This document shows, one piece after another, positions 1-23,464 of a stretch of DNA of 33,144 nt (position 1 is its first letter; every line of letters starts with the position of its first letter). Under the pieces are notes generated by a model. That model was not told the DNA's origin. It searched no databases and saw only the letters and a list, made by a program, of their open reading frames with translations. Origin of the DNA: Planctomycetota bacterium (GTDB lineage Bacteria > Planctomycetota > UBA1135 > GCA-002686595); NCBI GenBank assembly GCA_029259575.1, contig JAJDEX010000576.1:1-33144 (forward strand), read 5' to 3'. Made by a program: the position numbers and the translations under genes.

Positions 1-3000
1 AGCCTCGAAGCGGAAGTGGATTGGAGCGCGTTGCGGGTCCTCGCTGAGCAGCGCGGACGGCAACCGCAAGAGAAGGATGCTGTCGAGTTCTGGATGGGGC
101 TCCGTGTTCAAGCGGCGCTGCAGCACGCACTCGCCCAGGCCGCGCTGGTGGCCGGAGTCCCCGTACCCGATGCGCCGATCGTCGTCGTGCGGCGTCGCGA
201 CGAGGACCGCAACACCGACCCCGGACTGCAGACGGCGCTGGAGCGGACGCTCGGCACCGGAGCGCTCGCCGAGAACAGTCCCTGGTTCAGCGGCGTTGCG
301 CCGCACGAGGACCGACAGGGCGAGGTTCTCGTTCTCGCGGACGAGGCCGTTGTGGATCGCGTCCTCGAGGAGAACCCGGACATGCGACTGGCGGGACGCA
401 AATTGGGGATCTCCTATCCGGTCGAGGCGTCCAAACCCTTGATGCACATCGGTAGCGAGAGCCTGAGTGCGATTCACGTCATCGAAGTGCAGACGGCTCT
501 CGCGAACCTCGAGGACGGTCTGCTCGCGGGCATTCGCCACCGGTGCCCGGTGACCGCTGCGGACCTGACGGGGCGCTGCCTCGGAGGCAAGTACGAGATC
601 CTGCGCCAGATCGGCACCGGAGGATTCGGGACCGTCTACGAAGCGCGCGACAACATCCTGGACCATGCGGTCGCCATCAAGGTGCTGAGCGTGCCGGACG
701 GGGACGCCGAGGAGGCCTTCCTGGAGGAGGCGCGGCGCCTGACCCGGTTGTCCCACCCAGGCGTCGTCGAGTGGAAGGCGTTCGAGCGGAGCGAGGACGG
801 CATTCCGTACTTCGTGATGGAGTTGATCGAGGGGCGCATCCTCACCGAGGTGATCGCCGAAGAGGGACCGTTCGAGCCCGCACGCGCAGCGCGCATCGTG
901 CAGCAGATCCTCGATGCTCTACGCGCCGCGCACCGATTGCCGGGGGGCGACTCGTTGTTGCACCTCGACCTCAAGCCCGAGAACGTGCTGCTCGTTCCTG
1001 GTCGGGACGGCGAGCGCGTGAAGGTGATCGACTTCGGGATCGGGACGCTTGCAGACGGTTCACGGAACACGCTCGATGCAGTCGGTCCGGATGAACTGGG
1101 TGAGACCGGTCCGCTGACCACGCTGCATGCAGTCGCAACTCCGGGCGACGCGCACGCCTTCCGTTCCCTCGCCTGCACCCCCGAGTACTGTGCTCCTGAG
1201 CACGGACGACACGTCCTCGGCTACGCGGACATCGTGCCCCTGGACGGCCGTGCCGATCTCTACTCGTTGGGCGTCATCGCTTTCGAATTGCTCGAGGGGC
1301 GCCTGCCGTTCCTGACGACCGAACCGCGGATGCAGATTCTCGAGGAGAAGGCGACGCAAGCCGCGCCCACCTTGACTCGTGGGATCGCGCCCCGCAAGTT
1401 CGCCGCATTCGTCGCGCAGTGCCTGCAGACGGACCGTGCGCATCGATTCCACGACACGGACGACGCTCACGCTCAACTCGAGCGCGCGCTCCGTCCGCGT
1501 GCGTTGCGTGCCACCCTCGTTGCCGCAATGGCCGTCCTGGTCGCACTCGTGGGGTTCCTCGTTCGTCCGGCCGCATCTGCCCCCCGCCTCGAACTGCGGC
1601 GCGTCGGTGCCGGACAAGTGCTCGAGGTCCTGGGCGACACCGTTTGGATGGGGCCGAAGGCGCAGACCATCCGTTTGCGGGTGCCCGATCTCGCCGCTCA
1701 TCAGGTCGGAGCGCGAGTCGACGTGCGTTCGGGCATCGGTGAAGACTCGACCGAACCGATTCTGCTGGAAGCCGTCTGGGACGCGGGTGACCTCGTCCTG
1801 CGCCATCCGGATCGAATCGGGTCCAGCACCCAGGTCGTGCAGCTCGTCCTGGATGGCGAGGAACCCCTCGTTTCGGACCTTCTGACCGTTCGCTGGTTGG
1901 GTAGCGAGGCATGGTCCGTGGAGCCGATCGATCCGCGGGGTCGTGCCGGGCGCGCGATCGACGTCGACGGACAGCGCCTGGACGTGGAGGTCCGAGGTGT
2001 CGGTTCCGAGGACCTCGTCTCGGCCACATATGTCACCGAAGCGGGAAGCGTCACCGAGGCGTTCCATGCCTCAGCCGGGTCGAGCGCTCGCGTTTCCCTG
2101 CCCATCGAAGGCCTCCCGGGCCGAGCGCGCATCGAAGTCTTGGACCGCGCCGGCAACCGCGTCGTCAGCCCCTCGCCCTTCCCAACCTGTGCGGCGACGG
2201 TGCGCATCCAATCGGTCGAACTCGTCGCTCCGATGGATGGCGGTCGCGCGTGGATCGGCTCGGGAACCCGGCCTCGGCTGCGGGTCGACATGAGCACTCC
2301 CGCAACCTTGCACTGGTCGGCTCTGGACGAAGCTGGCAACACCTGTTCCCAGGGTTCCGCAGCCGTCTCGTCCGGCCGTACGCACATCGACCTGGTCGAT
2401 CTCGCCGATCCCTCGCGCGGGACGTGGTCCGGGAGGCTTGCGCTCACCGTCGACGACGCCGCCTACGTATGGAGGCGTCAGCCCGCGCAACGCGGTACCG
2501 ATCGCGCGAGTCTGCCGTTCACGGTCACCACCGACGTGCCGAGGGTGGGCATGTGGGCGACCTTCGGCGAAGGCGAACCGGTGCGTTTCGAGGACGGAGA
2601 TCGGATCCCCGTCGCGAGCGCCGTGGGGACGATCGTCGTCGAGCGGCTCTCCCCGCTGCCCATCGAGGTGAGCGTCGGCGACGGCGCCCCCGTTCGCATC
2701 GATGCCGCCATCGCAGGACGCGTCCACATTCCCGTGGAGGTGGGCGGTGCCGGAGAACGGCCGCTCCGGATCGAAGTGCGTCGCGTGCTCGACCGTGGCA
2801 CCGTCGCCCGTATCCCCGATCAGTCGTTCATCGCCATGCTCGAAGTGGACCTCACCCGACCGCGGTCGACGCTGTTGCCCGAGCACCTGCGAGGGGAGCG
2901 CAACGTGGCGTTGCATGTCGACTTCGCGGACGAACCCTTCCAGCGCGGCGGCCTCGCGGACTGGACCCTGCGCCGTGCCGAGAGCAGCCTGGAATTGGCG

Positions 3001-4305
3001 TCCGGGACCTTCGCGCTCGACCACGGTGCGAACGACCGGGTCCTCGCTCTGGCCGAATCGGTGCCGGATGGTGACCACGACTTCGAGGTCGTCGTGCGCG
3101 ACGAGGTCGGGCACGCGGACGAGCCCATTCACCGAACCTGGACGGTGGCACGCCACGGTCCGGACCTGGAGCTGCGTCGACCCGCACGCGACGTGTCGTG
3201 GATTCCAGGCGAGTCCGGCCGTTTCGAGATGGAGGTCCATGCGACCGACGCCAATCGAGTCGTCTCCGTGCAGGCCCTCGTTCGGACGGATTCCGGGAGC
3301 GCCGGTCCGTTTACCGGTGTACCGAACGCCGAAGGGACCTGGGACTTGGTGGGCGACCTTCCGCTCGGTTGGGTCGAACGCCCCGTCGCGATCGTCGTGA
3401 CGGCTGAGGACGGGCAAGGACGGAGCTCCGAAACGCGTTGGACCCGCGAGGTCGGCGTCTGGCGCCCGGCACGCCGCTCGCGGATTGCATGGGGGACGCG
3501 CGCAACCTGTGAGATGGTGCTGGTGCGAGGCAACGACGCGTCGCCCTACCTGTTCGGCGGGCGTGACGACGAGATCGAGACGGACCTGTTCCGCAAGCAC
3601 GGACTGCATCCCTATTCGATGTTGGGCACCCGGAAGTCCTGGGCCGTGCGCTACGAGGCTCGCGAGATCGCCGACGTCTACCTCGACGAGCGCGAGGTCT
3701 CCGCGGGCGAGTTCCTCGACTTCATGAGAGCGGACGACGGGTGGGGCCGAAGTGCGACCTGGTCACCGGGCGCCCGTCCTGCCGACGATCGCCGCGATGA
3801 TCTGGTGCAAAGTCTGTCCAGCAGCGATGCCGACGGGCCGGCCACGGGCGTGACCTGGGACGAGGCTCGGGCCTTCGCGCGTTGGGTCGGCAAACGGTTG
3901 CCCTCCTTGGTCGAGTGGGAGTACGCCGTCCGCGGTGGGAACGCCTACGGACCGGGGCCGCGGCTCGAAGGCCGGGAAGCTCCTGCTCCTGTCGGACTGA
4001 TGGACGGCCTGGCCGAGTGGACCGCCACTCCGGGCTGTCTAGCTCCGGAGGACACCTTGGTCCGTCGAACGATCGAACACCTGCGAGCCCATCGCGCCCT
4101 CGCGCTCGATCCAAGAGTGCTGATCGACCGATCCCCCCGACGCGACGCATGGGTGGCCGGCGACCCCGGTGGCGACCGCCTCGACTTCAGTTCCGTCGCG
4201 CGCCGTCGCTGTGACGTGACCCACCCTTTCCTCGGTTTCCGCTGCGCCATCGATGCGAGCGCAGTCGACGCCGATCACCGCGCTTCCACCGACACATCAC
4301 GATGA
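1..4305 (+). CDS. Membrane Ser/Thr protein kinase with extracellular Ig-like region and C-terminal SUMF1/FGE-like domain (5' end possibly outside window)
   Basis: Residues are counted from the GTG at 16. The frame is open to base 1 and that GTG has no clear ribosome site, so the gene may begin upstream. About 190 unrecognised residues precede a Pkn-type kinase: glycine loop GTGGFG (200-205), VAIK lysine 222, catalytic loop HLDLKPEN with Asp318, DFG 339-341, and EYCAPE in the activation segment. The usual HRD arginine is Leu317, so this is a non-RD kinase. One transmembrane helix follows near 498-517. About 650 residues of beta-rich, Ig-like segments come next, then a SUMF1/formylglycine-enzyme-like domain (about 1166-1412) with EMVLV, TWDEARAFARWVGKRLPS, EWEYAVRGG and LGFRC. 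That domain lacks the paired catalytic cysteines of true FGE; only Cys1399 lies near the site, so it probably binds rather than catalyses. The predicted topology is kinase inside, SUMF1 outside. The stop overlaps the next gene's start by four bases. The domain assignment is firm and the ligand unknown. Confidence 0.9.
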   Translation, partial: SLEAEVDWSALRVLAEQRGRQPQEKDAVEFWMGLRVQAALQHALAQAALVAGVPVPDAPIVVVRRRDEDRNTDPGLQTALERTLGTGALAENSPWFSGVAPHEDRQGEVLVLADEAVVDRVLEENPDMRLAGRKLGISYPVEASKPLMHIGSESLSAIHVIEVQTALANLEDGLLAGIRHRCPVTAADLTGRCLGGKYEILRQIGTGGFGTVYEARDNILDHAVAIKVLSVPDGDAEEAFLEEARRLTRLSHPGVVEWKAFERSEDGIPYFVMELIEGRILTEVIAEEGPFEPARAARIVQQILDALRAAHRLPGGDSLLHLDLKPENVLLVPGRDGERVKVIDFGIGTLADGSRNTLDAVGPDELGETGPLTTLHAVATPGDAHAFRSLACTPEYCAPEHGRHVLGYADIVPLDGRADLYSLGVIAFELLEGRLPFLTTEPRMQILEEKATQAAPTLTRGIAPRKFAAFVAQCLQTDRAHRFHDTDDAHAQLERALRPRALRATLVAAMAVLVALVGFLVRPAASAPRLELRRVGAGQVLEVLGDTVWMGPKAQTIRLRVPDLAAHQVGARVDVRSGIGEDSTEPILLEAVWDAGDLVLRHPDRIGSSTQVVQLVLDGEEPLVSDLLTVRWLGSEAWSVEPIDPRGRAGRAIDVDGQRLDVEVRGVGSEDLVSATYVTEAGSVTEAFHASAGSSARVSLPIEGLPGRARIEVLDRAGNRVVSPSPFPTCAATVRIQSVELVAPMDGGRAWIGSGTRPRLRVDMSTPATLHWSALDEAGNTCSQGSAAVSSGRTHIDLVDLADPSRGTWSGRLALTVDDAAYVWRRQPAQRGTDRASLPFTVTTDVPRVGMWATFGEGEPVRFEDGDRIPVASAVGTIVVERLSPLPIEVSVGDGAPVRIDAAIAGRVHIPVEVGGAGERPLRIEVRRVLDRGTVARIPDQSFIAMLEVDLTRPRSTLLPEHLRGERNVALHVDFADEPFQRGGLADWTLRRAESSLELASGTFALDHGANDRVLALAESVPDGDHDFEVVVRDEVGHADEPIHRTWTVARHGPDLELRRPARDVSWIPGESGRFEMEVHATDANRVVSVQALVRTDSGSAGPFTGVPNAEGTWDLVGDLPLGWVERPVAIVVTAEDGQGRSSETRWTREVGVWRPARRSRIAWGTRATCEMVLVRGNDASPYLFGGRDDEIETDLFRKHGLHPYSMLGTRKSWAVRYEAREIADVYLDEREVSAGEFLDFMRADDGWGRSATWSPGARPADDRRDDLVQSLSSSDADGPATGVTWDEARAFARWVGKRLPSLVEWEYAVRGGNAYGPGPRLEGREAPAPVGLMDGLAEWTATPGCLAPEDTLVRRTIEHLRAHRALALDPRVLIDRSPRRDAWVAGDPGGDRLDFSSVARRRCDVTHPFLGFRCAIDASAVDADHRASTDTSR

Positions 4306-8388: not shown

Positions 8389-10029
8389 ATGATTCAGCGG
8401 AAGAAGAAGATCGTCCTCTACCAGCCCAAGCAGGTGGACGACTCCCGCGGCGTCGAGTCGAGCAAGGACATGATCCCGCTCGAGATGCTGACGATCGCGG
8501 CCTATCCGCTTCAGGACGGCTACGACGTCGAGATCATCGACGGCTCCCTGTACCGCGGCGACGAGGGGCACGAGCGCTTCCTGGCGGCGTGCGAGGGCGC
8601 GATGATGGTCGCCACGACCGGCATCCTGGGCTACATGGTCACCGACGGCTGGCGCGCGATGAAGCGCGTGAAGCAGAGCTACCCGGACCTGCCCGCGGTC
8701 ATCGGTGGCTGGTTCGCCAGCGTGCGTCCCGACCTCCAGCTCGAGACCGGCATGTACGAGGCCGTGGTCCTCGGCCAGGGCGAGCTGACCTTCCGCGACG
8801 TCGTCGCTGCGATCGATGCGGGGGAGCCGCTCGACGACGTGCAGGGCCTGGCGCTCTGGCGCGACGGCGCCGTGTACAAGACCGACCCGCGACCGATCGC
8901 GGGCTGGGACCAGATCCTCAAGGTCCCGTACCACCTGATCGACATCGAGCCGTACCGCGAGCACCAGATGCGCGCGACCTCGGCGCGCGACGTGCTGCGC
9001 CTGCCGACGCCCCCGTGGATCGGATACGGCAAGCCGTACTTCGGTATCACCTACTTCGGCTCCTACGGTTGCCCCGAGCCGTGCACGTTCTGTTGCTCGC
9101 CGCTGGTCACCAACCGACGTTGGAAGCCGGTGCCGGCCGACCGCATGCTCGACGACCTCGAGGAGCTGCAGGACCGTTGGGGCTTCGACTCCGTGCGTTT
9201 CCACGACGCCAACTTCGGCGTGATGGAGAAGCGCTCCAAGGACTTCGCCGAAGGCCTCCTGAACCGCAACATGCAGTTCGGTTGGAACGCGTTCATCGAG
9301 ACGCACTCGATCCTGAACTACAAGCAGTCCACGCTCGACGCGATGGCCGACAGCGGCATGTACGTCGCCGAGATCGGCGCCGAGGCCGGCGACAACGACA
9401 TGATGAAGACGATCGGCAAGCCGATCCACGACGACGACAACATCGAGGCCGCGGTCCAGATGGATCGACGCGGCATCATGGGGTCGATCACCTACATCAT
9501 CGGCTTCCCCGGTGAGAGCGAGGCGTCGATGCTCTCGACGATCGACCAATGTCGTCGCCTGCACCTCGCGGCGCCGCACGCGCGCCCGAACGTCTGGCCC
9601 TTCCGCCCGATCCCCGGAACGAAGATGTGGGACGAGGCGCTCGAACTCGGCTACGAGGGTCCCAAGGACCTGCCCGACTGGGGTTCGATCGGCGAGTACC
9701 ACCTCGAGGAGACCTGGCCGGGCAACATCCCGCCCAAGGTCGCCGAGGCCCGCATGATGTACCAGCACTACGCGACCCTGAACTGGGGTCTCGCGCGCGG
9801 CAAGCGCGGCTGGTGGGAGGACCGCGCCGAGAAGCGCCTGACCGACGGCAGCTACGTCACCGGTCGCAACGAAGCGCGCGCGTTCGGTCTGTTCAACAAG
9901 GTCCGCAAGAAGCTCTTCCGCCCCGACGACGTTCCGCGCAGCTGGGTCGACCCGGGCCACAAGACGGGCACCGCCGGCAACGAACGTTCGGAAGCGCGCT
10001 CGGTGATGACCGACGCCACGAAGGGCTAG
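8389..10029 (+). CDS. B12-binding-domain radical SAM protein
   Basis: The 546-residue protein has an N-terminal cobalamin-binding-type Rossmann domain (about 1-150) with IVLYQPK, GYDVEIIDG, ATTGILGYM and PAVIGGWFAS. A radical SAM core follows with the 4Fe-4S cysteines Cys228, Cys232 and Cys235 in GCPEPCTFCC. Downstream are RFHDANFGV, AEIGAEAGD, SITYIIGFPGE and RPIPGTKMWDEA, typical of the BchE/P-methylase-like class B radical SAM enzymes. The B12 domain lacks the DxHxxG base-off motif, as is common in this class. The C-terminal 120 residues are basic and specific to this protein. The likely chemistry is methylation or rearrangement at an unactivated carbon using SAM and cobalamin. The substrate cannot be told, and neighbours pdxA and a secreted protein give no clue. 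Confidence 0.9.
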   Translation: MIQRKKKIVLYQPKQVDDSRGVESSKDMIPLEMLTIAAYPLQDGYDVEIIDGSLYRGDEGHERFLAACEGAMMVATTGILGYMVTDGWRAMKRVKQSYPDLPAVIGGWFASVRPDLQLETGMYEAVVLGQGELTFRDVVAAIDAGEPLDDVQGLALWRDGAVYKTDPRPIAGWDQILKVPYHLIDIEPYREHQMRATSARDVLRLPTPPWIGYGKPYFGITYFGSYGCPEPCTFCCSPLVTNRRWKPVPADRMLDDLEELQDRWGFDSVRFHDANFGVMEKRSKDFAEGLLNRNMQFGWNAFIETHSILNYKQSTLDAMADSGMYVAEIGAEAGDNDMMKTIGKPIHDDDNIEAAVQMDRRGIMGSITYIIGFPGESEASMLSTIDQCRRLHLAAPHARPNVWPFRPIPGTKMWDEALELGYEGPKDLPDWGSIGEYHLEETWPGNIPPKVAEARMMYQHYATLNWGLARGKRGWWEDRAEKRLTDGSYVTGRNEARAFGLFNKVRKKLFRPDDVPRSWVDPGHKTGTAGNERSEARSVMTDATKG

Positions 10030-12514: not shown

Positions 12515-13180
12515 ATGAGCGAAGACCTTCCCAACCCGGAGTCCATGGAATCCGGGTCCACGCGATCCGAGCCCACGATGCCCGGTCCCTACGACTGGGC
12601 CGATCACTACACCAAGGGCGACACACCCTGGGACCTGGGCGCCGCGCATCCGGATCTGGTCGCGCGCATCGCGGCGGGTGAGTTCGAGCCGCCCAGGACC
12701 GGGGCCCGCGCGTTGGTGCCGGGTTGTGGAAAGGGGCACGACGCCCTGGCGCTCGCCCAGGCCGGCTGGGTGGTCGTCGCGCTCGACTACGTGCCCGAGG
12801 TGCAGACCATTCTGGGTGCCCAGCTCGCGAAGTTCGGGGGCGAGGTCGTGCTGGGGGACGCGCTCGAGTTCGCGCCCGACGAGCCCTTCGACCTGATCTG
12901 GGAGCACACGTTCTTCTGCGCGATCGACCCGAGCGATCGCCCGCGCTACGCGGAGCTGATCCGCCGCGTCCTGGCACCTGGCGGCCAGCACGCAGCGATC
13001 GTGTTCCCCCTGGACAAGCCCGAGGAGGAGGGCGGTCCTCCGCACGGCTTCAACGCGAGCACGCTGGACGACCTGCTCGGGGACGAGTTCCGGCGATTGA
13101 CCGAGGAACCCGTCGGCCAGGGAGTCGGCAAGCGAACGCGACCCGAGCGGTTCTCCCTGCTCGAGCGGCGCGGCGGCTGA
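12515..13180 (+). CDS. TPMT-family SAM-dependent methyltransferase
   Basis: The 221-residue cytosolic protein matches the thiopurine S-methyltransferase superfamily. It has DTPWDLGAAHP (about 36-46), the SAM-binding motif VPGCGKGHD (68-76), acidic Asp91 after VVAL, GDALEF, and the family signature WEHTFFCAI (129-137), then LAPGGQHAAIVFPLD. Bacterial relatives methylate small thiol, selenium, tellurium or halide substrates, and the one here cannot be told. An extra 25-residue N-terminal extension rich in Ser, Glu and Pro could be disordered, or the start may be internal (Met22). Its stop lies two bases from the stop of the convergent nitroreductase-methyltransferase fusion. Confidence 0.88.
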   Translation: MSEDLPNPESMESGSTRSEPTMPGPYDWADHYTKGDTPWDLGAAHPDLVARIAAGEFEPPRTGARALVPGCGKGHDALALAQAGWVVVALDYVPEVQTILGAQLAKFGGEVVLGDALEFAPDEPFDLIWEHTFFCAIDPSDRPRYAELIRRVLAPGGQHAAIVFPLDKPEEEGGPPHGFNASTLDDLLGDEFRRLTEEPVGQGVGKRTRPERFSLLERRGG

Positions 13181-13182
13181 GA

Positions 13183-14661
13183 TCACTTGGCCTTGGTGTA
13201 GCTGCGGAACTGGAAACGTCCGCGGCTGGACTTCACACCAGGGACGTGCTCGAGCCATCCGAGCACGCGGCCGAGCCCGCGCACGAGTCCCCCGGTCCGC
13301 GCACCGAAGTTGCGCGTGCGGAACGCGAGTTCCTCGGGCGCCGGCGTGGCTTGGCTGCCCATCTTGCCGCTGGCCACCAAGCCAGCTGTTCGCAGCGGTC
13401 CATCGACTTCGGCCGGCGCGAGCGCCTGGAAGGGGCCGATGTTCGGATCGGGGGACAGCACGTACTCGACGCCGCCCGGGCCTCCGCGGCGCGCGCGCAG
13501 GCTCTCGGTCCATTGGTGGAACGAGCGCTTCGAGACGAAGGCGATCCACAGCGTGCCCCCGGGCTTGAGCCAGCGCGCCATGTCGTGGATCAAACGTGCA
13601 CGTTCTTCAGCGCCGAGGCCCTCGAGCCGGAACAGGCACGACACGACGTCGTAGGCTCCGTCCTCGGGCGCATCCATGCCGGCTGAAGCCGTGGGCCAAC
13701 CGCGCGTGACCGCATTCGGTTTGACGCGCTTGGCGCACCAGCCGGCGACCTCGGGGCTGCGCTCGGCGACCTCGAACGTGTAGCCGCGACGTTCGCGGGC
13801 GATGCGTTCCGTGAGGATGCCGGTGCACGGCAGGACGTCGAGCCAGCGGTTGCCGGAGTCCTGGTCGGCTGCGGGCACGTGCGCCTCGAGCGACTCGAGC
13901 AACGCGCGCGTCTCCCAGGCACGCGGCTTGTTGTGACGCAAACCATTCAACACGCGAGCGCGTTGGTAGATGGCCAGCAGGTCGGGTTCCCAGTCCGCCG
14001 GGTTCGCCGACGACGGAATCGGCCGACCGGTGTAGTGGTTGTAGTGCGCGACCTGACTGAGCGGGCGGCGCTTCGGTCCGGCCTTCGGGATCGCTTTCGG
14101 CCAACCCAGCGCGACGACGGCGATCACCATGCGATCGGGCGGCAGGCCGACGCGCGCGCGCACCTTCTCGGCGTCACCGGTCTGCGTGATCCAGAACGTG
14201 CCGAGGCCGAGCACCTGCGCGGCCAGACTCATGTTCTGGATGAGCGCGCTCGCGGACTGGATGTTGGCCGCGTTCTCCTCGGAGAACCCGCGCCCGTAGG
14301 CGACGACGATGTTGACCGGCGCGTTGCCCATCTGCGACGAGAGCGCCGCGAGGTCCGCGTTGATCTCGGGGTCGTCCACCGCGACGAGATCCCACATCTG
14401 ATAGTTGCAGGAACTCGGAGCCCAGATGCCCGCGTGCATGACCTGGTCGACGAGTTCACGGGCGACGGGGTCGGGCCGGAAGCGGCGGATCGAGCGACGC
14501 TCGTACAGCGCGTCCCAGAAGTCCTGGGCGGGCAACTCGGCCAGCGGCGGGGTGCGACCGTCCTCGATGTCCCCGGAGCCCGCGGTCGGATCCCCGGCGG
14601 GTCGGTCGGGGATTCCCTCCGAGGACGCGCTCGTCGGTTGCTCTTCGGGATCGGGGGGCAT
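13183..14661 (-). CDS. Nitroreductase-methyltransferase fusion protein
   Basis: The 492-residue protein joins two enzymes. Residues about 49-215 are an FMN-dependent nitroreductase: ERRSIRRFRPDPV (54-66), APSSCNYQMWDLVAV (81-95), MGNAPVNIVVAYG, SLAAQVLGLGTFWI, and VVALGWPKA near the end. Residues about 250-425 are a class I SAM methyltransferase with a divergent motif I (WLDVLPCTGILTE, 273-285), YDVVSCLFRLEGL and WLKPGGTLWIAF. The last 65 residues resemble the tails of methyltransferases. A roughly 45-residue acidic, Pro-rich start precedes the nitroreductase. I know no characterised protein with this order, so a coupled redox/methyl-transfer reaction on one substrate is inference. The ATG is preceded by GGAAGAGG. 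It lies 130 bases downstream of the sigma-factor pair on the same strand and may be read from its own promoter. Confidence 0.85.
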   Translation of the reverse strand: MPPDPEEQPTSASSEGIPDRPAGDPTAGSGDIEDGRTPPLAELPAQDFWDALYERRSIRRFRPDPVARELVDQVMHAGIWAPSSCNYQMWDLVAVDDPEINADLAALSSQMGNAPVNIVVAYGRGFSEENAANIQSASALIQNMSLAAQVLGLGTFWITQTGDAEKVRARVGLPPDRMVIAVVALGWPKAIPKAGPKRRPLSQVAHYNHYTGRPIPSSANPADWEPDLLAIYQRARVLNGLRHNKPRAWETRALLESLEAHVPAADQDSGNRWLDVLPCTGILTERIARERRGYTFEVAERSPEVAGWCAKRVKPNAVTRGWPTASAGMDAPEDGAYDVVSCLFRLEGLGAEERARLIHDMARWLKPGGTLWIAFVSKRSFHQWTESLRARRGGPGGVEYVLSPDPNIGPFQALAPAEVDGPLRTAGLVASGKMGSQATPAPEELAFRTRNFGARTGGLVRGLGRVLGWLEHVPGVKSSRGRFQFRSYTKAK

Positions 14662-14791: not shown

Positions 14792-15487
14792 TCAGAAGTC
14801 GGTCCCGAGGGGACGCAGGTCCTGTTCGGGCGGCGGGACCAACCGGGGCAGTCCCCGGCTCCCGAGCGGCACGATCAGGTGCAGGAGATTCGGCACGCCA
14901 GGCGCCGAGAGCTGCACGACCGGGACGCCATCGATCTGGCAGGTGTGCATGCGGACGCCGGAACCTCGCACGCCCTGACCGACGGCGGTCGCCGGCGGGT
15001 GGGTCAACACGAAGGCCTCGCCCTCCGGTCCAACGAGGCGCAGCGCACGGGTGCCGCGCCAGGGCAAGCCCTCGAGCGGACCTTCGACCGCATAGCGCGC
15101 GTCGTGGACCACGCCGACGGGGACGTCCCCGAACGTGCGCGGTCCTTGCGGTTGCAAGCTGCAACCGAACGTGCCGACGTCGTCGAGGGCCAGGACGTCG
15201 GGACCGAACGTCGGGATCTCGCTGCACAGGTCCGGCGAGGACAGGAAGCTGACGTACAGATCGTCGAGCGTCGGCCCCGGGGACGATCCGGGTCGCGTCG
15301 TCATCGTCGACACGATGAGCACCGCGGCGGCTGCAACCCCGGCGAGGCTCCACCACGCGGAGTGGCGACCCTCGTCACGGCTCCACAGCCGGCGGACCGT
15401 GCGCGCGGGGTCGGCGGGCGGCTGGAAGGAAGCCCGCAAGCGGGCTTCGATCGCCTCCCAGTCGTTGGTTCGTCGTTCGTCGCTCAT
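14792..15487 (-). CDS. Membrane-anchored partner of the ECF sigma factor, candidate anti-sigma factor
   Basis: The 231-residue protein has a charged cytoplasmic N-terminus of about 42 residues (MSDERRTNDWEAIEARLRASF, ending near DEGRHS). One transmembrane helix follows (about WWSLAGVAAAAVLIVSTM, 44-61), then an extracytoplasmic domain of about 165 residues. The outer part contains three cysteines (in SPDLCSEIP, GTFGCSLQP and MHTCQIDG) and a beta-rich C-terminus. The start overlaps the sigma gene's stop by four bases (ATGA), the arrangement typical of an ECF sigma and its anti-sigma factor. The N-terminus has no obvious zinc-binding ZAS motif, so the anti-sigma role rests on position and topology. 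The extracellular part could be the sensor. Confidence 0.75.
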   Translation of the reverse strand: MSDERRTNDWEAIEARLRASFQPPADPARTVRRLWSRDEGRHSAWWSLAGVAAAAVLIVSTMTTRPGSSPGPTLDDLYVSFLSSPDLCSEIPTFGPDVLALDDVGTFGCSLQPQGPRTFGDVPVGVVHDARYAVEGPLEGLPWRGTRALRLVGPEGEAFVLTHPPATAVGQGVRGSGVRMHTCQIDGVPVVQLSAPGVPNLLHLIVPLGSRGLPRLVPPPEQDLRPLGTDF

Positions 15488-16182
15488 CGCGAATGGTCCC
15501 CTTCGGCGGTGGGGGATTCAGGGCTCAGGCTCTTCAACATCGCGCTGCGCGCACGGTGGACGTGGCTCATCGCCGTGCCTTCGGGAATGCCGAGCGTCGC
15601 GGCGATGGTCTTGTGATCGAGTTCGAGGACGACCTTGAGCAGCAAGCAGGCGCGCGCGGTCGGGCGCAGGTCCATCAACGCGGCGACGAGTTCGTCGTCC
15701 CAGCTGCCATCGTCCCAGGGACTCAACTCGCCTTGCAGCGTGATCCCAGCACGCGGCGCCGGGCTGGCGGCGGGGCGCGAGGCCAGGACCTCATCCCCAC
15801 GCGCGACCTCCCAACGACGCACGCGCTTGCGCAGGCGATTGAGGGCGGAGTAGCGGACGATGCGTCCCATCCACGCGCCGAAATCGGTGCCCGGTTGGAA
15901 GGTGTCCAGTTTTTCGAGTGCGACCACGGCGGCTTCCTGCAACACGTCCTCGGCTTCGACCCGGTCGCCCGTGATGCTCGCGGCCACGGTCCACAATCGC
16001 GTGGCGTGGGATTCGAACATCGACCCGAAGGTCGGCCGATCCAGCCGGCCCGCGTTCGAGACGGGCTCGGAGGGAACCGGCAGATCGGACCGATCCCGGG
16101 ATGGGGTCCTGGCCGTGTTCGCGGTCGGAACCCGGCTGGGAGCGGGGTCGGGCATGCCGTGGGGGTGTTGTGTGGGCTCCAT
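15484..16182 (-). CDS. ECF-family RNA polymerase sigma factor
   Basis: The 232-residue reading starts at the ATG at 16182. Region sigma2 spans about 53-122 (FESHATRLWTVAASITGD, EAEDVLQEAAVVALEKL, FGAWMGRIVRYSALNRLRKR). Region sigma4 spans about 163-219 (DLRPTARACLLLKVVLELDH, IAATLGIPEGTAMSHVHRAR). Together these are diagnostic of an ECF sigma factor that directs RNA polymerase to a stress or surface regulon. The first 50 residues are Pro/Ser-rich and not part of the fold. The frame stays open far upstream to 16989, but that stretch runs antisense to a lipoprotein gene, so a start at 16182 or at Met10 (16155) is preferred. No strong Shine-Dalgarno is seen. The stop overlaps the next gene by four bases. 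Confidence 0.88.
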   Translation of the reverse strand: MEPTQHPHGMPDPAPSRVPTANTARTPSRDRSDLPVPSEPVSNAGRLDRPTFGSMFESHATRLWTVAASITGDRVEAEDVLQEAAVVALEKLDTFQPGTDFGAWMGRIVRYSALNRLRKRVRRWEVARGDEVLASRPAASPAPRAGITLQGELSPWDDGSWDDELVAALMDLRPTARACLLLKVVLELDHKTIAATLGIPEGTAMSHVHRARSAMLKSLSPESPTAEGDHSR

Positions 16183-18014: not shown

Positions 18015-18796
18015 AGGTCCTCGTCGCCCTCCGATTCGTCGTCCAAGGGTTGCCCCGGATTCTCCATGGCGTCCTTCTCCTTCTGACGACGTTTCTCCTC
18101 GTCGAGCACGCCGTACATCTCGCCTTCGGCGCGGTCCGTGTACGCGTCGTCCTGGGCACGACGGCGGCGGGCGGAGGTCGCGGGCTCGTCCGGGTGGACC
18201 GAGACGACCGCGCCCGAGATCAAGGCGACCGCGGCTTCCTCGCTGAGTCCCTGGTCGGCCAGGTGTTCGTACAGCGCCAGCTTCTCGTGGGCCAGCATCT
18301 CGAGCTGGGTGATCTCGAGCGTCGTCGGCGACGGCGAGATGTTCGAGAACCCGAACTGCAGGATGCGCACGCCCCATTGGTCCTCGACGTTGCGCAGCTC
18401 GTCGCGAATCTCGTCGCACATCTGATCGACGGCCGTCACGGTCTTGCGGTCCTTGCTGGACACGACCTGTTGGATCGCGATGACGACGCGGTTCTGCAAG
18501 CCGGTCACCAGGTCGTCGACCTCGATGACGGCCTTGCGCAGGTTGACGATCTGGTAGACGACCTTCGAGTCGATCTCGTAGACCAGGTTGTCGCTCAGCT
18601 GGATGATCTGGGGCTCCAGGTCGAGCGTCGTGTGCTTCGTCTCCTTGACCTGGAACGTCTGGATGATCGGGATCTTGAAGTGGATCCCCGGTCCGACGAC
18701 CGAGCGGGCGCGGCCCAGGGTGAAGCGCAGAGCGTGTTGGCCGTCTTTGACGACGACGAAGAGGCCGGTGAAGGCTCCGAAGATGTCGAGGGACAT
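18011..18796 (-). CDS. SPFH/band 7 (stomatin-like) protein, first of a tandem pair
   Basis: The start is set at ATG 18796 (MSLDIFGAFTGLFVVV), where a hydrophobic membrane-entry segment begins; the open frame upstream is low-complexity Gly/Pro/Arg and unlikely to be translated. The 261-residue product shows HALRFTLGRARSVVGPGIHF, IPIIQTFQVKE, TTLDLEPQIIQLSDNL, SKVVYQIVNLRKAVIEVDD, WGVRILQFGFSNISPSP and ITQLEMLAHEKLALYE, all typical of the family. The C-terminal 60 residues are acidic and probably disordered (ending DDESEGDEDL). This contrasts with the basic tail of its partner, so charge pairing between the two is possible (inference). It is co-transcribed with the second SPFH gene and divergent from HMG-CoA reductase. 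Confidence 0.88.
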   Translation of the reverse strand: MSLDIFGAFTGLFVVVKDGQHALRFTLGRARSVVGPGIHFKIPIIQTFQVKETKHTTLDLEPQIIQLSDNLVYEIDSKVVYQIVNLRKAVIEVDDLVTGLQNRVVIAIQQVVSSKDRKTVTAVDQMCDEIRDELRNVEDQWGVRILQFGFSNISPSPTTLEITQLEMLAHEKLALYEHLADQGLSEEAAVALISGAVVSVHPDEPATSARRRRAQDDAYTDRAEGEMYGVLDEEKRRQKEKDAMENPGQPLDDESEGDEDL

Positions 18797-18963
18797 GGTG
18801 TCGGTTGGGCGCCTCTTGGGGCGTCGTGAGGGGATGCCGAGTGCGGGCCCCCGCCGAGGGGGCATGCCGCTGCGAGTCCCTGCTGGGTGGATGCGTGGGG
18901 CGGGCCCTCGGACGCAGCCCCATCGAATGGGGCCGGCCGGGTGCCGTGGTCCCGCCGAAAGGG

Positions 18964-18999
18964 GCGGACGTCCGCGGAGGATACTCGCTGGCCCTCCGC
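18964..18999. promoter_or_regulatory. Nested palindromes upstream of HMG-CoA reductase, candidate operator
   Basis: GCGGACGTCCGC is a perfect 12-base palindrome. It abuts a seven-base inverted repeat (GCGGAGG and CCTCCGC, 12 bases apart) that spans the -35 position of the HMGR promoter. Confidence 0.4.
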
Positions 19000-19007
19000 C
19001 CACGCGC

Positions 19008-19013
19008 TACCTT
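19008..19013 (+). promoter_or_regulatory. -10-like TACCTT, candidate leaderless promoter
   Basis: TACCTT ends six bases before the ATG at 19020. The hexamer is a poorer match than the others, but the spacing is the same as at pdxA and the TPMT-family gene. Confidence 0.35.
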
Positions 19014-19019
19014 CCCGCC

Positions 19020-20228
19020 ATGACTCCCCGTCCCACCCCGCCCCGGATCCCGCGCGAACGCGGTGACGATCACAATCCTTCCATCGTCGCGCGGCGCCTC
19101 GCGCTCTGCGAAGGGGCCGCCGGTGGCGCCCTGCCGTACCTGGCGGGGCAGTCCGTGGAGCCGGCGGCGGCCCGCGGCAACATCGAGAACCTGATCGGCT
19201 TCGCCCAGGTGCCCGTGGGCATCGCGGGTCCGATGTCGGTCGACACCTCGTCCGGCGAACGCACCGTCTACGTCCCGATGGCCACGACCGAGGGTGCGAT
19301 GGTCGCGTCCTACTCCCGTGGCATGCGGCTGCTCGGGGAAGGTGGGGGAGCCTGGGCGCGCGTCACCCGCGAGGGTTTGTCGCAGCACCCGATGCTGGAG
19401 TACGCGGACGTCCCCGGGGCGCTCGCTGCAGCGGACGTGGCGCGCACGAGCCTGGCGGCCTGGCGCGAGGTCGTCCAAGGCATCACCTCGCACGGCGAGT
19501 TGATCAGCGCGGATCCCGAGATCCTGGGGCGGCGCCTCGTGCTGCGCTTGATCTTCACGACGGGCGATGCGATCGGGATCAACATGGCGGCGCACGCGGC
19601 CGACCTGATCAGTCAAGACCTGGCGGAGCGTACGCGGGCCCGCGCGCGCTACGTCCACGGCCAGGACGTCGAGAAGCGCGCGAACGCTCGCGCACTGGTC
19701 GAGGGGCGCGGTCGCTCGGTCGTCGCCCAGGTCGTCGTGCCGCGCAAGGCCTTGCAGGACGTCGCGCGCGTCACGCCTGAGGACATGGTCGCCGTCGCGC
19801 GCGCCTACGCCACCGGCTACGCGCAACTGGGCACCCAGAACTGGACCGTCCAGGCCGCGAACGGGCTGTCCGCGATCCTGGTGGCCTGCGGCCAGGACGT
19901 CGCCTACGTCACCGAATCCGCCACAGGACTGCTGGATCTGGACCTCACGGACGACGGCGATCTGTTCGCATCCGTCACGTTGCCGTCGTTGTTGGTCGGC
20001 ACCGTCGGCGGCGGCAGCGGACAGGGCACGGCGCACGAGTGCCTGTCGATCCTGGGGTGCGTGGGCGACGGACAGGCGAACACGTTCGCCGAGATCCTGG
20101 GCGCCGCGGTGCTCGCCGGCGACCTGTCGTTGATGGCGGCCTTCTGTGCGCACGAGTTCGTCGAAGCGCACGAGCGTTTGGGTCGCAACCGCCCCGGTCG
20201 AGACCGCGACGGGAGTCCGAGCGCGTGA
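19020..20228 (+). CDS. Hydroxymethylglutaryl-CoA reductase
   Basis: The 402-residue catalytic domain reduces HMG-CoA to mevalonate, the committed step of the mevalonate route to isoprenoids. Motifs in order are ENLIGFAQVPVGIAGPM, ATTEGAMVAS with Glu91, GDAIGINM, DVEKRANA with Lys219, ACGQDVAYV with Asp293, VGTVGGGSGQGTAHE, and a C-terminal FVEAHERLGRNR with His384. These match the Glu/Lys/Asp/His catalytic set. The VGTVGGG and C-terminal His-x-x-x-Gly-Arg-Asn patterns look closer to class I (eukaryote/archaeal) enzymes than to class II bacterial ones. There is no membrane domain, so it is cytosolic. The Lys motif differs from the class I DKKPAAINW, so the subclass is uncertain. The stop overlaps the next start (GTGA). 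No other mevalonate gene is present here. Confidence 0.9.
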   Translation: MTPRPTPPRIPRERGDDHNPSIVARRLALCEGAAGGALPYLAGQSVEPAAARGNIENLIGFAQVPVGIAGPMSVDTSSGERTVYVPMATTEGAMVASYSRGMRLLGEGGGAWARVTREGLSQHPMLEYADVPGALAAADVARTSLAAWREVVQGITSHGELISADPEILGRRLVLRLIFTTGDAIGINMAAHAADLISQDLAERTRARARYVHGQDVEKRANARALVEGRGRSVVAQVVVPRKALQDVARVTPEDMVAVARAYATGYAQLGTQNWTVQAANGLSAILVACGQDVAYVTESATGLLDLDLTDDGDLFASVTLPSLLVGTVGGGSGQGTAHECLSILGCVGDGQANTFAEILGAAVLAGDLSLMAAFCAHEFVEAHERLGRNRPGRDRDGSPSA

Positions 20229-21148
20229 AGCCGGACTCGAAACCGTTGGGCCTGTGGGTCTGGATCTCCTACGGATTCCTGGTCGCGTGCCTCGGCATGT
20301 ACCTCTACATGGGCTCGCAGCCCGGGGGCGCGAACGCGATCTGGGTCTACCGCTTCGGTCGCTATTTCCTGGCGATCGGCGCGTTGCTCTTCCTGCCGAT
20401 CGCGTTCTTCTGCGCGTGGCGTTCGCAGCCGATGATCACGAGGCCGCGCGGCCTCGCCTTCGCGTGCTTGGCCGGCACGGTCGGGATCGCCACCTGGCCG
20501 GTGCCGTACAGCACGCCGCATCCGCCCAGCACGGTCGAGTTCCACATGCCGGTCGCAGGCGCCTGGCGCGTCCTGATCGGAGGCCGCGGCGACCAGGCCA
20601 ATCCGCTGCGCTTGATCCCCGCGCGTTGCACCGGCCTGCAGCTGGTGCGCGATGTCGAGGGAGCCCCGATCCGCGAGGGGGCCGCGGTGCCGCCGACCTA
20701 TGTGGATCACCTCGCCTTCGGGGAACCCGTGAGCTCTCCGTGCGCGGGGACGGTCGTGCGAGCCGTGGGGGACCTGCCCGACCTGCCCGCGCCCGAGCGG
20801 CGACGTAGCGCCGAGATCGGCAACCACGTGGTTCTCGAGGTCGGTGAGGGCGAATACCTCTATCTGGCCAACCTCCAGGCCGGGAGCCTGCAGGTCGGCG
20901 TGGGGGAACGGGTCGAGACCGGCCAGTCCGTGGCGCGGGTCGGGGCTTCGAGCCGCGCGAACCCCTCCTCGGCGCCCCATCTGGAGGTTTTCCTCGCCAG
21001 CCACCCTGACCTGCAGCACGCCGAAGGGGTGCCCTGGTTCCTGTTCGACTACGTCGCCGACGGCGTCCCGATCCGCTCCGGGGTCCCGCGCGGAGGGGTC
21101 GCCCGGGGTGGCGCTTGGGTGGGCCAGGTGATCGAAGCGAGTCGCTGA
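20225..21148 (+). CDS. Membrane protein with degenerate M23 (LytM-like) peptidase fold
   Basis: Starting at the GTG that overlaps the HMGR stop, the 307-residue protein has three predicted membrane segments (about 9-28, 47-65 and 78-95). An extracytoplasmic beta-rich domain follows. Its pattern follows M23 endopeptidases: YVDHLAFGEPVSSPCAGTVV (about 159-178), GNHVVLEVGEGEYLYLANL, VQ/VGxxVETGQSVARVGASS, then APHLEVFL with His252. In active M23 enzymes the last motif is HLHFE and the third is YAHL. Here these read HLEVF and YLANL, so at least two zinc-site or catalytic histidines are missing and a non-catalytic, peptidoglycan-binding or regulatory role is more likely. Coupling to HMG-CoA reductase may link isoprenoid carrier supply and envelope biology, but that is speculation. 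Confidence 0.75.
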   Translation: MKPDSKPLGLWVWISYGFLVACLGMYLYMGSQPGGANAIWVYRFGRYFLAIGALLFLPIAFFCAWRSQPMITRPRGLAFACLAGTVGIATWPVPYSTPHPPSTVEFHMPVAGAWRVLIGGRGDQANPLRLIPARCTGLQLVRDVEGAPIREGAAVPPTYVDHLAFGEPVSSPCAGTVVRAVGDLPDLPAPERRRSAEIGNHVVLEVGEGEYLYLANLQAGSLQVGVGERVETGQSVARVGASSRANPSSAPHLEVFLASHPDLQHAEGVPWFLFDYVADGVPIRSGVPRGGVARGGAWVGQVIEASR

Positions 21149-21161
21149 GCCCACCCGGGCC

Positions 21162-21189
21162 TTGACGCGCGGAAGCCGGCTCCTATCCT
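21162..21189 (+). promoter_or_regulatory. Sigma-70-type promoter for fusA
   Basis: TTGACG (-35, 5 of 6 to consensus) and TATCCT (-10, 4 of 6) are 16 bases apart. Predicted transcription starts near 21196, giving a leader of about 157 bases. It is one of only two promoters in the window with two readable hexamers. Confidence 0.65.
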
Positions 21190-21195
21190 GATTGG

Positions 21196-21352
21196 CTTCC
21201 ACGCCCGGAGAGCAAGTCTCTTTGGGCGCGAATCGACCCCTGTTCCCACTCGGAAGAGCGCCAAGAGTCCCGGCCAAGAGCCGGCTGTCGCGCACCTTCC
21301 GATCTCGATCGACGCACTTCGCGTCTGCCCCCATTCCTGATCCTCCATCGCC
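21196..21352 (+). promoter_or_regulatory. Structured 5' leader of fusA
   Basis: The leader opens with a ten-base-pair hairpin (GCCCGGAGAG, loop CAAGT, CTCTTTGGGC, 21203-21227). The sequence GCCAAGAG then occurs twice (21260-21267 and 21273-21280), the second copy within a short CCGG/CCGG stem. No Shine-Dalgarno is evident before the ATG. No known riboswitch was recognised. Confidence 0.5.
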
Positions 21353-23464
21353 ATGACCGCCGTCCTCAAGAAAGAGTCCCCGAGCCTGTCCAGGCCCCAG
21401 TCCAAGGGACTCGCGCGTCGCCGCAACATCGGGATCATGGCCCACATCGATGCGGGCAAGACGACCGTCACGGAGCGCGTGCTCTTCCTGACCCAGCGCA
21501 TCCACAAGACCGGCGAAGTCCATGACGGCGCCGCGACGATGGATTACCTGGAAGAGGAGCAGAAGCGCGGCATCACGATCCAGTCGGCTGCGACGTCCTG
21601 CGAGTGGAACGGCTACGAGATCAACATCATCGACACGCCGGGTCACGTCGACTTCACCGTCGAGGTCGAGCGCTCGCTGCGCGTCCTCGATGGCGCCGTC
21701 GCGGTGTTCGACGCCAAGAACGGTGTCGAGGCCCAGTCCGAAACGGTGTGGCGTCAGGCCGACCGCTACAAGGTTCCGCGCATCTGCTTCATCAACAAGA
21801 TGGACAAGATCGGTGCGAACTTCGAGTTCGCCGTCGGCACCATCCGCGATCGCCTCGGCGCGCGCCCCGTCCCGATCCAGCTGCCGATCGGCACCGAGAA
21901 GGACTTCGAGGGCTTCGTCGACCTGATCCGCATGAAGTACATCACCTTCCCCGACGATGGGGACGGTCGCGAGTACCTCGAGGGCGAGATTCCCGAGGAG
22001 CACATGGAGGCCGCCGAGCTGGCGCGCCACGACATGCTCGAGGTCGCCGCCGAGAGCGACGACGAGCTGCTCGACCTGTTCCTCGAGGATCAGCCGATCA
22101 GCGAAGAGATGGTCGTCCGCGCGCTGCGCCAGGCCTGCCTGAGCCTCGCCGCCACGCCGGTCCTCGCCGGTTCCGCCCTCAAGCACAAGGGCGTGCGCTT
22201 CGTCATGGACGCCGTCCTCCAGCTGCTGCCCGCGCCGATCGAGATCCCGCCCGTCGAGGGCACGATCCCGCACACCGAGACCATCGTCACGCGCAAGCCG
22301 TCCGACGACGATCCCGTCGCCGTCATGGCGTTCAAGACGATCGCCGAGCCGACCGGTGACCTGACCTTCGTGCGCGTCTACTCGGGCGTCCTCAAGAAGG
22401 GCACCAAGCTCGAGAACCCGCGCACGGGCAAGACCGAGCGCATCGGCCGCCTCGTTCGGATGCACGCCAACAAGCGCGAGGCGCTCGAGGAAGTGCACGC
22501 CGGCGACATCGCCGCCATCATCGGTCTGAAGAACACCGTCACCGGAGACACGTTGTGCGATCCGGACAACCCGATCGCGCTGCAGAAGATCTCCTTCCCG
22601 GACACCGTCATCTCGATGTCCCTCGAGCCGGAAGAGAACAAGGACCGCGACAAGCTGTCCGAGATCATCGGCCGCATGATGCGCGAGGACCCGACCTTCA
22701 AGGCGGTCACCGACGAGGCTACGGGCGAGCTCGTGATCTCGGGCATGGGTGAGCTGCACCTGGAAGTCGTCGTCGGTCGCATCAAGAACGACCACAACTG
22801 CGGCGTGCGCACCGGCAAGCCGAAGGTCGCGCTCAAGCAACGCCTCAAGAAGAACATCGAGACCCAAGCTCGCTACATCCGTCAGTCGGGTGGTTCGGGC
22901 CAGTTCGCCGTCGTCAGCGTCCGTTTCGAGTACGACCCCGAGCTGACCGGCTTCGAGTTCGTCGACGGCGTCAAGGGTGGCAACGTTCCCCGCGAGTACA
23001 TCCCGGCGGTGCGCACCGGTCTCGAGAGCTACTTCAAGGTCGGCGGCCGCAACGGTACGCCGTTCGTCTCGACGCGCTGCACGCTGTTCGACGGCAAGGC
23101 GCACGACGTCGACTCCAACGAGAAGGCCTTCGAGGCTGCGGGCGTCCTGGCCTTCCGCCAGGCGGTCGAGGGCGGCAACACCGTGTTGCTCGAGCCCTAC
23201 ATGAAGGTCGAGGTGACCGTGCCCGAGGAATTCCTCGGCGCCGTCGTCGGTGACCTCAACTCGCGCCGTGGCGAGGTGTCCGACGTCGACAGCCAGGGTG
23301 ACCTGCGCATCGTCCGCTCGGTCGTCCCGATCGCCGAGATGTTCGCCTACTCGTCCGCCCTGCGCGGCGCGACCCAGGGCCGTGGCCAGTACTCCATGGA
23401 GTTCCAGGAGTACCGCGACGTGCCCGAGGGCATCGCCAAGAAGATGCGCGAAGTCGAGGAGTAG
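21353..23464 (+). CDS. fusA: Translation elongation factor G
   Basis: The 703-residue GTPase has all EF-G motifs: G1 AHIDAGKTT (30-38), switch I ending [11 protein letters not shown]3 DTPGHVDF (94 onward), G4 NKMD (148-151) and GSALKHKGV. Domain II follows ([11 protein letters not shown]), then [11 protein letters not shown] and [12 protein letters not shown] in domain III, GGVPREY-like [12 protein letters not shown] in domain IV and a complete domain V. It catalyses ribosome translocation in the cytoplasm. QSAAT, GSALKxKGV and REDPTFK are closer to mitochondrial EF-G1 and the spirochaete/planctomycete type than to E. coli FusA (partial memory, not an alignment). No rpsL, rpsG or tuf genes flank it, so it is outside the classical str operon and may be one of several EF-G copies. 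It is followed by a terminator. Confidence 0.96.

Follow-up and report, generated by a model that had tools for sequence, protein, structure and literature searches.

A minus-strand gene of a Planctomycetota bacterium (assembly GCA_029259575.1, contig JAJDEX010000576.1) appeared, in a first-pass annotation of its sequence, to join a nitroreductase and a methyltransferase in one chain. Is the fusion real, is it kept in other genomes and in which pathway might such a protein act? The window is the whole stretch of DNA that was analysed (33 144 nucleotides). The gene, its relatives and its neighbours were followed by domain searches, structure prediction and comparison of genomes.

Sequence sets

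Species genomes were scanned for exact matches to 8-residue words from the window protein, giving 50 loci, and per-genome searches added more. From 81 loci, 71 strong matches (E ≤ 1e-20) were retained. Identical copies and one contig-cut protein were dropped, leaving 52 distinct full-length proteins, that of the window included. L073, whose gene is truncated by the contig end, was excluded from the alignments. Residue counts were made on 60 sequences, i.e. the 52 distinct proteins and eight more from families f47 and f27. The family of the window is referred to as f1.

Reading frame and domains

The gene reads through 492 codons without an internal stop. Its GC content by codon position (0.69/0.53/0.87, window GC 68%) fits coding DNA. 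The predicted full-length model had a pLDDT of 85.9 and a pTM of 0.78. Independent assemblies, among them the complete chromosomes of Poly30, Pla86 and Pla163, carry the same fusion. Both domains lay in one open frame in 52/52 distinct proteins; a stop or frameshift between the domains was looked for in each of them and none was found. An assembly artefact or a frameshift as the source of the fusion was thereby ruled out. The initial reading of two domains fused in one chain was thus confirmed by the open frame, by matches to PF00881 and PF13489 and by the 52 fused proteins. Coordinates are given in Table 1.

Table 1. Features of the fused gene and its convergent neighbour (window coordinates)
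Feature	Coordinates	Strand	Remarks
Fused nitroreductase-methyltransferase gene	13183..14661	-	492 aa, ATG start, stop included; 51 full-length relatives
FMN nitroreductase domain	14017..14523	-	About residues 47-215; PF00881; model match 4dn2_A
Conserved linker/cap	13909..13992	-	Residues 224-251; W224, Y232, G240, R242 and K245 in 60/60
Class I SAM methyltransferase-like domain (predicted)	13186..13860	-	About residues 268-492; Pfam, model and structure match, residue counts
Convergent TPMT-like methyltransferase	12515..13180	+	PF05724 TPMT, E 3.3e-25

Nitroreductase half and linker

The N-terminal half matched PF00881 with 94 bits (cut-off 23.5, E 1.5e-26), the best stretch starting at residue 53, and a PF14512 match reached residue 209. 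Together they agree with the first-pass placement of a nitroreductase at about residues 49-215. PF00881 was matched by all 52 distinct full-length proteins at E ≤ 0.01. The N half of the predicted model (range 41-204) was aligned with 4dn2_A over 160 residues (Z 21.3, rmsd 2.0, 31% identity). The best NCBIfam match of the fusion, also in this half, was the BluB model TIGR02476 (E 6e-18), yet its 64.9 bits are under the curated cut-off of 150 and a BluB identity was rejected.

Residues R55, R56, R59, P82, N86, Q88, R198 and R199 were identical in 60/60 sequences, and position 57 was Ser in 56 (S57 in the window protein) and Thr in four. FMN-site arginines and a serine of the nitroreductase family are described in PMC6017928. 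The residues expected at such a site are kept in the fusion, the matching of each one to its FMN contact being putative.

Of three segments compared, the linker (residues 224-251) had the highest median pairwise identity, 79%, against 72% for the N half and 50% for the C half.

Methyltransferase-like half

The structure search with the whole model listed mostly nitroreductases; the C half was therefore folded and searched alone. Its predicted model had a pLDDT of 86.7 and a pTM of 0.87, and the top match among class I methyltransferases had a Z of 17.4 (rmsd 3.5, 204 residues aligned). A class I (Rossmann-like) methyltransferase fold is predicted for this half. Three SAM methyltransferase Pfam models matched at about residues 265-381, just over their cut-offs (PF13489 28.5 bits vs 27, E 1.4e-6). 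PF13489 matched 51/52 distinct full-length proteins at E ≤ 0.01.

The landmarks of this half are LDVLPCTG at 274-281 (motif I), the acidic residue E300, the invariant R345 and E347, and GVEYVLSPDPNIGPF at 397-411. The unusual motif I (DVLPCTG) reported from the first reading is therefore as read. Leu or Met replaced the first Gly of GxGxG in 60/60 sequences, and the half is accordingly named methyltransferase-like. The second Gly was present in only 4/60, all four from f27, and another residue stood there in the other 56. The third Gly was found in 60/60, as was an acidic residue after strand 2 (56 E, four D at E300), and R345 and E347 were kept in 60/60. The odd motif I is a fixed trait of the family and not decay in a single genome. 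With the first Gly missing throughout and the second in 56/60, methyl transfer by this half is uncertain.

The domain might then carry out no methyl transfer and serve the flavin enzyme as a substrate- or SAM-binding platform. The replaced glycines are in line with such a role, as are Pfam scores barely over cut-off and the lower conservation of the C half relative to the N half. We consider it unlikely, given the retained acidic residue, third Gly, Arg and Glu. Selection also argues against it: for the 12 closest pairs, dN/dS was 0-0.13 in the N half and 0.08-0.28 in the C half, so that purifying selection acts on both. In addition, some active amino-methyltransferases have no Gly at the first position of motif I.

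Distribution and descent

The 51 distinct relatives were 45-69% identical to the window protein and, like it, all fused, so that the domain search in other genomes showed the fusion to recur. In a sample of 61 genomes of relatives, the full-length fusion was found in 21, namely 20/37 of family f1 and one of f8. In a sample of 392 Planctomycetota genomes, many of them incomplete and with at most three candidates scored per genome in both the fusion and the partner searches, it was found in 21 (13 f1, four f47 and four f27). The titles of the word-scan matches named Planctomycetota, a group within it, or an unnamed or uncultured bacterium; as the scan required identical 8-residue words, distant copies in other phyla could escape it. 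Among 31 pattern matches in viral contigs there was no relative of the fusion. None of 66 plasmid records spanned 80% of the query, and the best 20 of the 66 matched the nitroreductase half only.

A profile of the C half matched 16 places in 294 Planctomycetota genomes (E ≤ 1e-10, up to eight candidates scored per genome), and 16/16 lay inside fused frames; no separately encoded C half was found in these genomes at this threshold. Orthologues encoded apart, which would have spoken against a true fusion, are thus absent from this set for the C-terminal half. In the window's own genome, the same profile gave only three weak matches to generic methyltransferases (E 4e-4 to 9e-3). A 98-aa piece (G030:C258) matching residues 397-486 alone was considered as a free C half and rejected: it is a cut copy that runs into the end of a 3779-base contig. 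Free-standing relatives of the nitroreductase half were common, as expected.

Pairwise identities of the N and C halves were correlated (Spearman 0.82, 1770 pairs from 60 rows; permuted maximum 0.26). A tree of the N half was built from 23 fused rows chosen among the 60 and 19 free-standing sequences, from which L029 and L031 were removed at the outset. On the remaining 40 rows, two changes were needed to account for the fused set because the long-branch L109 falls in it (support 59/5). A single origin was not rejected when the fused rows were constrained to one clade (AU test, p 0.481). After removal of five long rows (L109, L002, L030, L025 and L026), the 23 fused rows lay on one side of a branch (99/97). 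Taken as a whole, the fusion is a stable family, kept intact across several families of Planctomycetota.

Two f1 genomes carry divergent fusions, G020 (L140:2376-3779) and G032 (L141:8608-10035), which group weakly with the f47 copies (79/60) and adjoin the gene of the ~600-aa partner protein treated below. They hint at transfer of a two-gene module.

Neighbours in the window

The separate methyltransferase gene seen at first reading to converge on the fusion was recovered as a PF05724 match, with 2 bases between the two stop codons. The functional link hinted at for this pair failed. In 37 f1 genomes, the TPMT-like gene was found in 9/20 with the fusion vs 5/17 without it (p 0.50) and was unmatched in 11/20 fusion-bearing genomes. 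Its presence does not follow that of the fusion, and it was rejected as a functional partner on co-occurrence. The HEAT/VWA neighbour was matched in 37/37 family genomes, with or without the fusion, and is uninformative.

The genes around the window's fusion are housekeeping or generic (PdxA, HMG-CoA reductase, EF-G, ECF sigma), and the gene order common to relatives reflects synteny. The HMG-CoA reductase and EF-G genes (window 18588-23464) were also near the fusion in 13 and 12 loci of relatives, respectively; for the M23 peptidase-like gene that separates them, two loci had a match. At 14792-16080, an ECF sigma factor gene overlaps the beginning of another gene. A single membrane span is predicted for the product of the latter, apparently the anti-sigma partner of this factor. 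A B12-binding radical SAM protein is encoded at 8389-10029, and its matches in the long loci of relatives were 48-82% identical. The frame at 1-4305, open to the window start, encodes a protein kinase domain followed by a C-terminal FGE-sulfatase-like domain.

A partner protein co-occurring with the fusion

In the sample's f27 genomes (4/4), as well as the f8 genome and the two divergent f1 genomes, the fusion is directly followed, on the same strand, by a gene for a protein of ~600 aa. One of these partner genes is cut by a contig end. In 7/7 adjacent loci, from three lineages, the partner has a possible start codon that gives an overlap of 4 to 22 bases with the end of the fusion gene. A single partner copy is present in the window's genome, on a contig other than that of the fusion (G000:C445:6949-8649, i.e. 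L153:6949-8649).

In the phylum sample, the partner was found in 30/392 genomes: 21/21 with the fusion vs 9/371 without it (Fisher p 4e-28, uncorrected for shared ancestry). The counts were 21/21 vs 11/40 in the 61 relatives and, within f1, 20/20 vs 9/17 (p 6e-4, again uncorrected for shared ancestry). The fusion is thus linked to the partner. To the objection of shared ancestry, the TPMT-like control and the adjacency seen in three lineages give a limited answer. Since the partner occurs with no detected fusion in nine genomes of the phylum sample and in 11 of the 61 relatives, the pathway may run without the fusion.

At the thresholds used, the partner had no match in Pfam or NCBIfam. When 12 members were compared with Pfam, matches were weak and scattered (best E 0.025), those to alginate lyase, in 4/12 members, having a best E of 0.051. 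Sequence and profile searches for its fold gave nothing significant (best, squalene-hopene cyclase, E 0.019), and an alpha/alpha toroid would be no more than a guess. Many polar residues are invariant in the family, whose genes lie downstream of those for GT4 glycosyltransferases in polysaccharide clusters of Planctomycetota.

Glycosyltransferase clusters

Twenty-four partner loci were picked by hand and read: the seven adjacent ones, 11 from the 31 genomes of one partner search and six from the 30 partner genomes of the phylum sample. A GT4c homologue was located upstream of the partner in 22/24, and the two were separated by nothing, by the fusion or by a GT2 gene. The usual order in f1, with queries taken from one of these loci (L157), is GT4a, GT4b, GT4c, partner, GT4d, GT4e. 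In 5/7 adjacent loci (four f27 genomes and one f8), the fusion is between GT4c and the partner, in a glycosyltransferase-rich cluster. Genes for epimerases, sulfatases, GT2 and B12 radical SAM proteins recurred around partner loci. An asparagine-synthase-type amidotransferase was present in three of them (L135, L137 and L139), and in one (L158) an exopolysaccharide glycosylphosphotransferase exceeded its cut-off (394 vs 296 bits). In 8/9 ordinary f1 partner loci read, including that of the window's genome, a GT2 gene (L157:7939-8841, L153:6017-6907) is found between GT4c and the partner, at the place taken by the fusion in f27 and f8 genomes.

The two divergent f1 pairs are in other surroundings. 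In G020 (L140), the pair is inside a different sugar-nucleotide cluster, with epimerases, a nucleotidyltransferase and a sugar C-methyltransferase. The pair in G032 (L141) adjoins a glycosylphosphotransferase-like gene that scored below cut-off, and an epimerase-like gene is further off. Being found in different sugar clusters, the pair appears to be a module shared by several kinds of polysaccharide locus.

Most f1 fusions are away from the cluster: the partner was nearby in 1/50 scan loci, several of which have short flanks. The fusion is also apart from the partner cluster in the four f47 genomes. These positions, together with the genomes that have the partner alone, are the main counter-evidence to a role in polysaccharide synthesis. 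A stand-alone detoxification or housekeeping enzyme (e.g. nitro or quinone reduction followed by methylation of the product), tied to polysaccharide genes by shared ancestry, would account for its generic neighbours in the window and for a fusion that, in most of the family loci read, is not with the cluster. This explanation appears very unlikely in view of the 21/21 co-occurrence with an unlinked partner, of an adjacent TPMT-like control that gave no association and of fusion and partner genes overlapping in three lineages.

Proposed function

We propose that the fusion is a tailoring enzyme, dependent on FMN and SAM, that belongs to a surface-polysaccharide pathway present in part of Planctomycetota, and give this reading a probability of about 0.5; the substrate, the order of steps and the methyl transfer in it are inferred from domains and context. 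The N half would be an oxidoreductase of the FMN nitroreductase fold, expected to be a dimer and presumed to bind FMN. It would carry out a two-electron redox change on a sugar, a glycolipid or a lipid-linked sugar intermediate. The C half, if it binds S-adenosylmethionine and is catalytic, would then methylate the group so exposed, both halves presumably sharing a substrate. The ~600-aa partner and several GT4 glycosyltransferases would act on the same chain, after or during methylation. The window's copy, although on another contig than the cluster, would still serve that pathway. We know of no nitroreductase-fold enzyme that acts on a polysaccharide precursor.

The bifunctional enzyme suggested by the first-pass annotation thus stands in part. 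The fusion, its conservation, the FMN-site residues and the predicted class I methyltransferase fold are in its favour, and a motif I with no first Gly in all 60 sequences is against it. It is quite unlikely, in our opinion, that the halves are both active, each on a substrate of its own within one pathway, and are held together without channelling. The data fit such an arrangement as well as they fit the proposed tailoring enzyme, but a linker with the highest identity of the three segments suggests more than a tether.

More tentatively, and with the odds somewhat against it, the fusion and the new ~600-aa family may constitute a module of two genes whose products modify the sugars in a bacterial surface polysaccharide. 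If so, the overlapping gene pair offers a compact, testable system in which to look for the substrate. If a polysaccharide is tailored, nitroreductase-fold flavin chemistry extends to sugars. It would be a flavin-dependent sugar modification for which we found and know of no described counterpart, together with a new carbohydrate-active family.

Comparison with known systems

In the open-access literature, with most subscription journals outside it, no report was found of the fusion, of its fixed motif I or of its tie to the partner. The nearest solved structure, the nitroreductase 4dn2 of Geobacter metallireducens, has the same fold (31% identity) and the residues expected at the FMN site. 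It is a single domain of ~190 residues, whereas the fusion adds a conserved linker and a methyltransferase-like domain. The entry 4eo3, by its title a peroxiredoxin-nitroreductase fusion, also joins a nitroreductase to another enzyme domain; it differs in that partner domain and in having its nitroreductase second.

For the predicted C half, five class I methyltransferases gave tied ranks: METTL6 (8owx), TM1293 (1vlm), MfnG (7ux6), CmoM (8joz) and UbiG (4kdc), with Z of 17.4, 17.3, 17.0, 16.8 and 16.5, respectively (rmsd 3.0-4.1, 191-229 residues aligned). The C half differs from them by its low identity (10-19%), its motif I LDVLPCTG and its conserved GVEYVLSPDPNIGPF stretch.

The related clusters resemble XrtA/PEP-CTERM exopolysaccharide loci, models of that system being the best NCBIfam matches of the amidotransferase and of one GT4. 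All these scores are below cut-off (amidotransferase TIGR03108, 498 vs 816.9 bits, one protein, L137), and the locus is similar only.

Two well-known families are involved, yet their pairing is stable over several families of one phylum and tied to an uncharacterised protein. Singly, the two halves fall in known families or come close to them; what appears new is their pairing, the fixed motif I and the tie to an unnamed partner.
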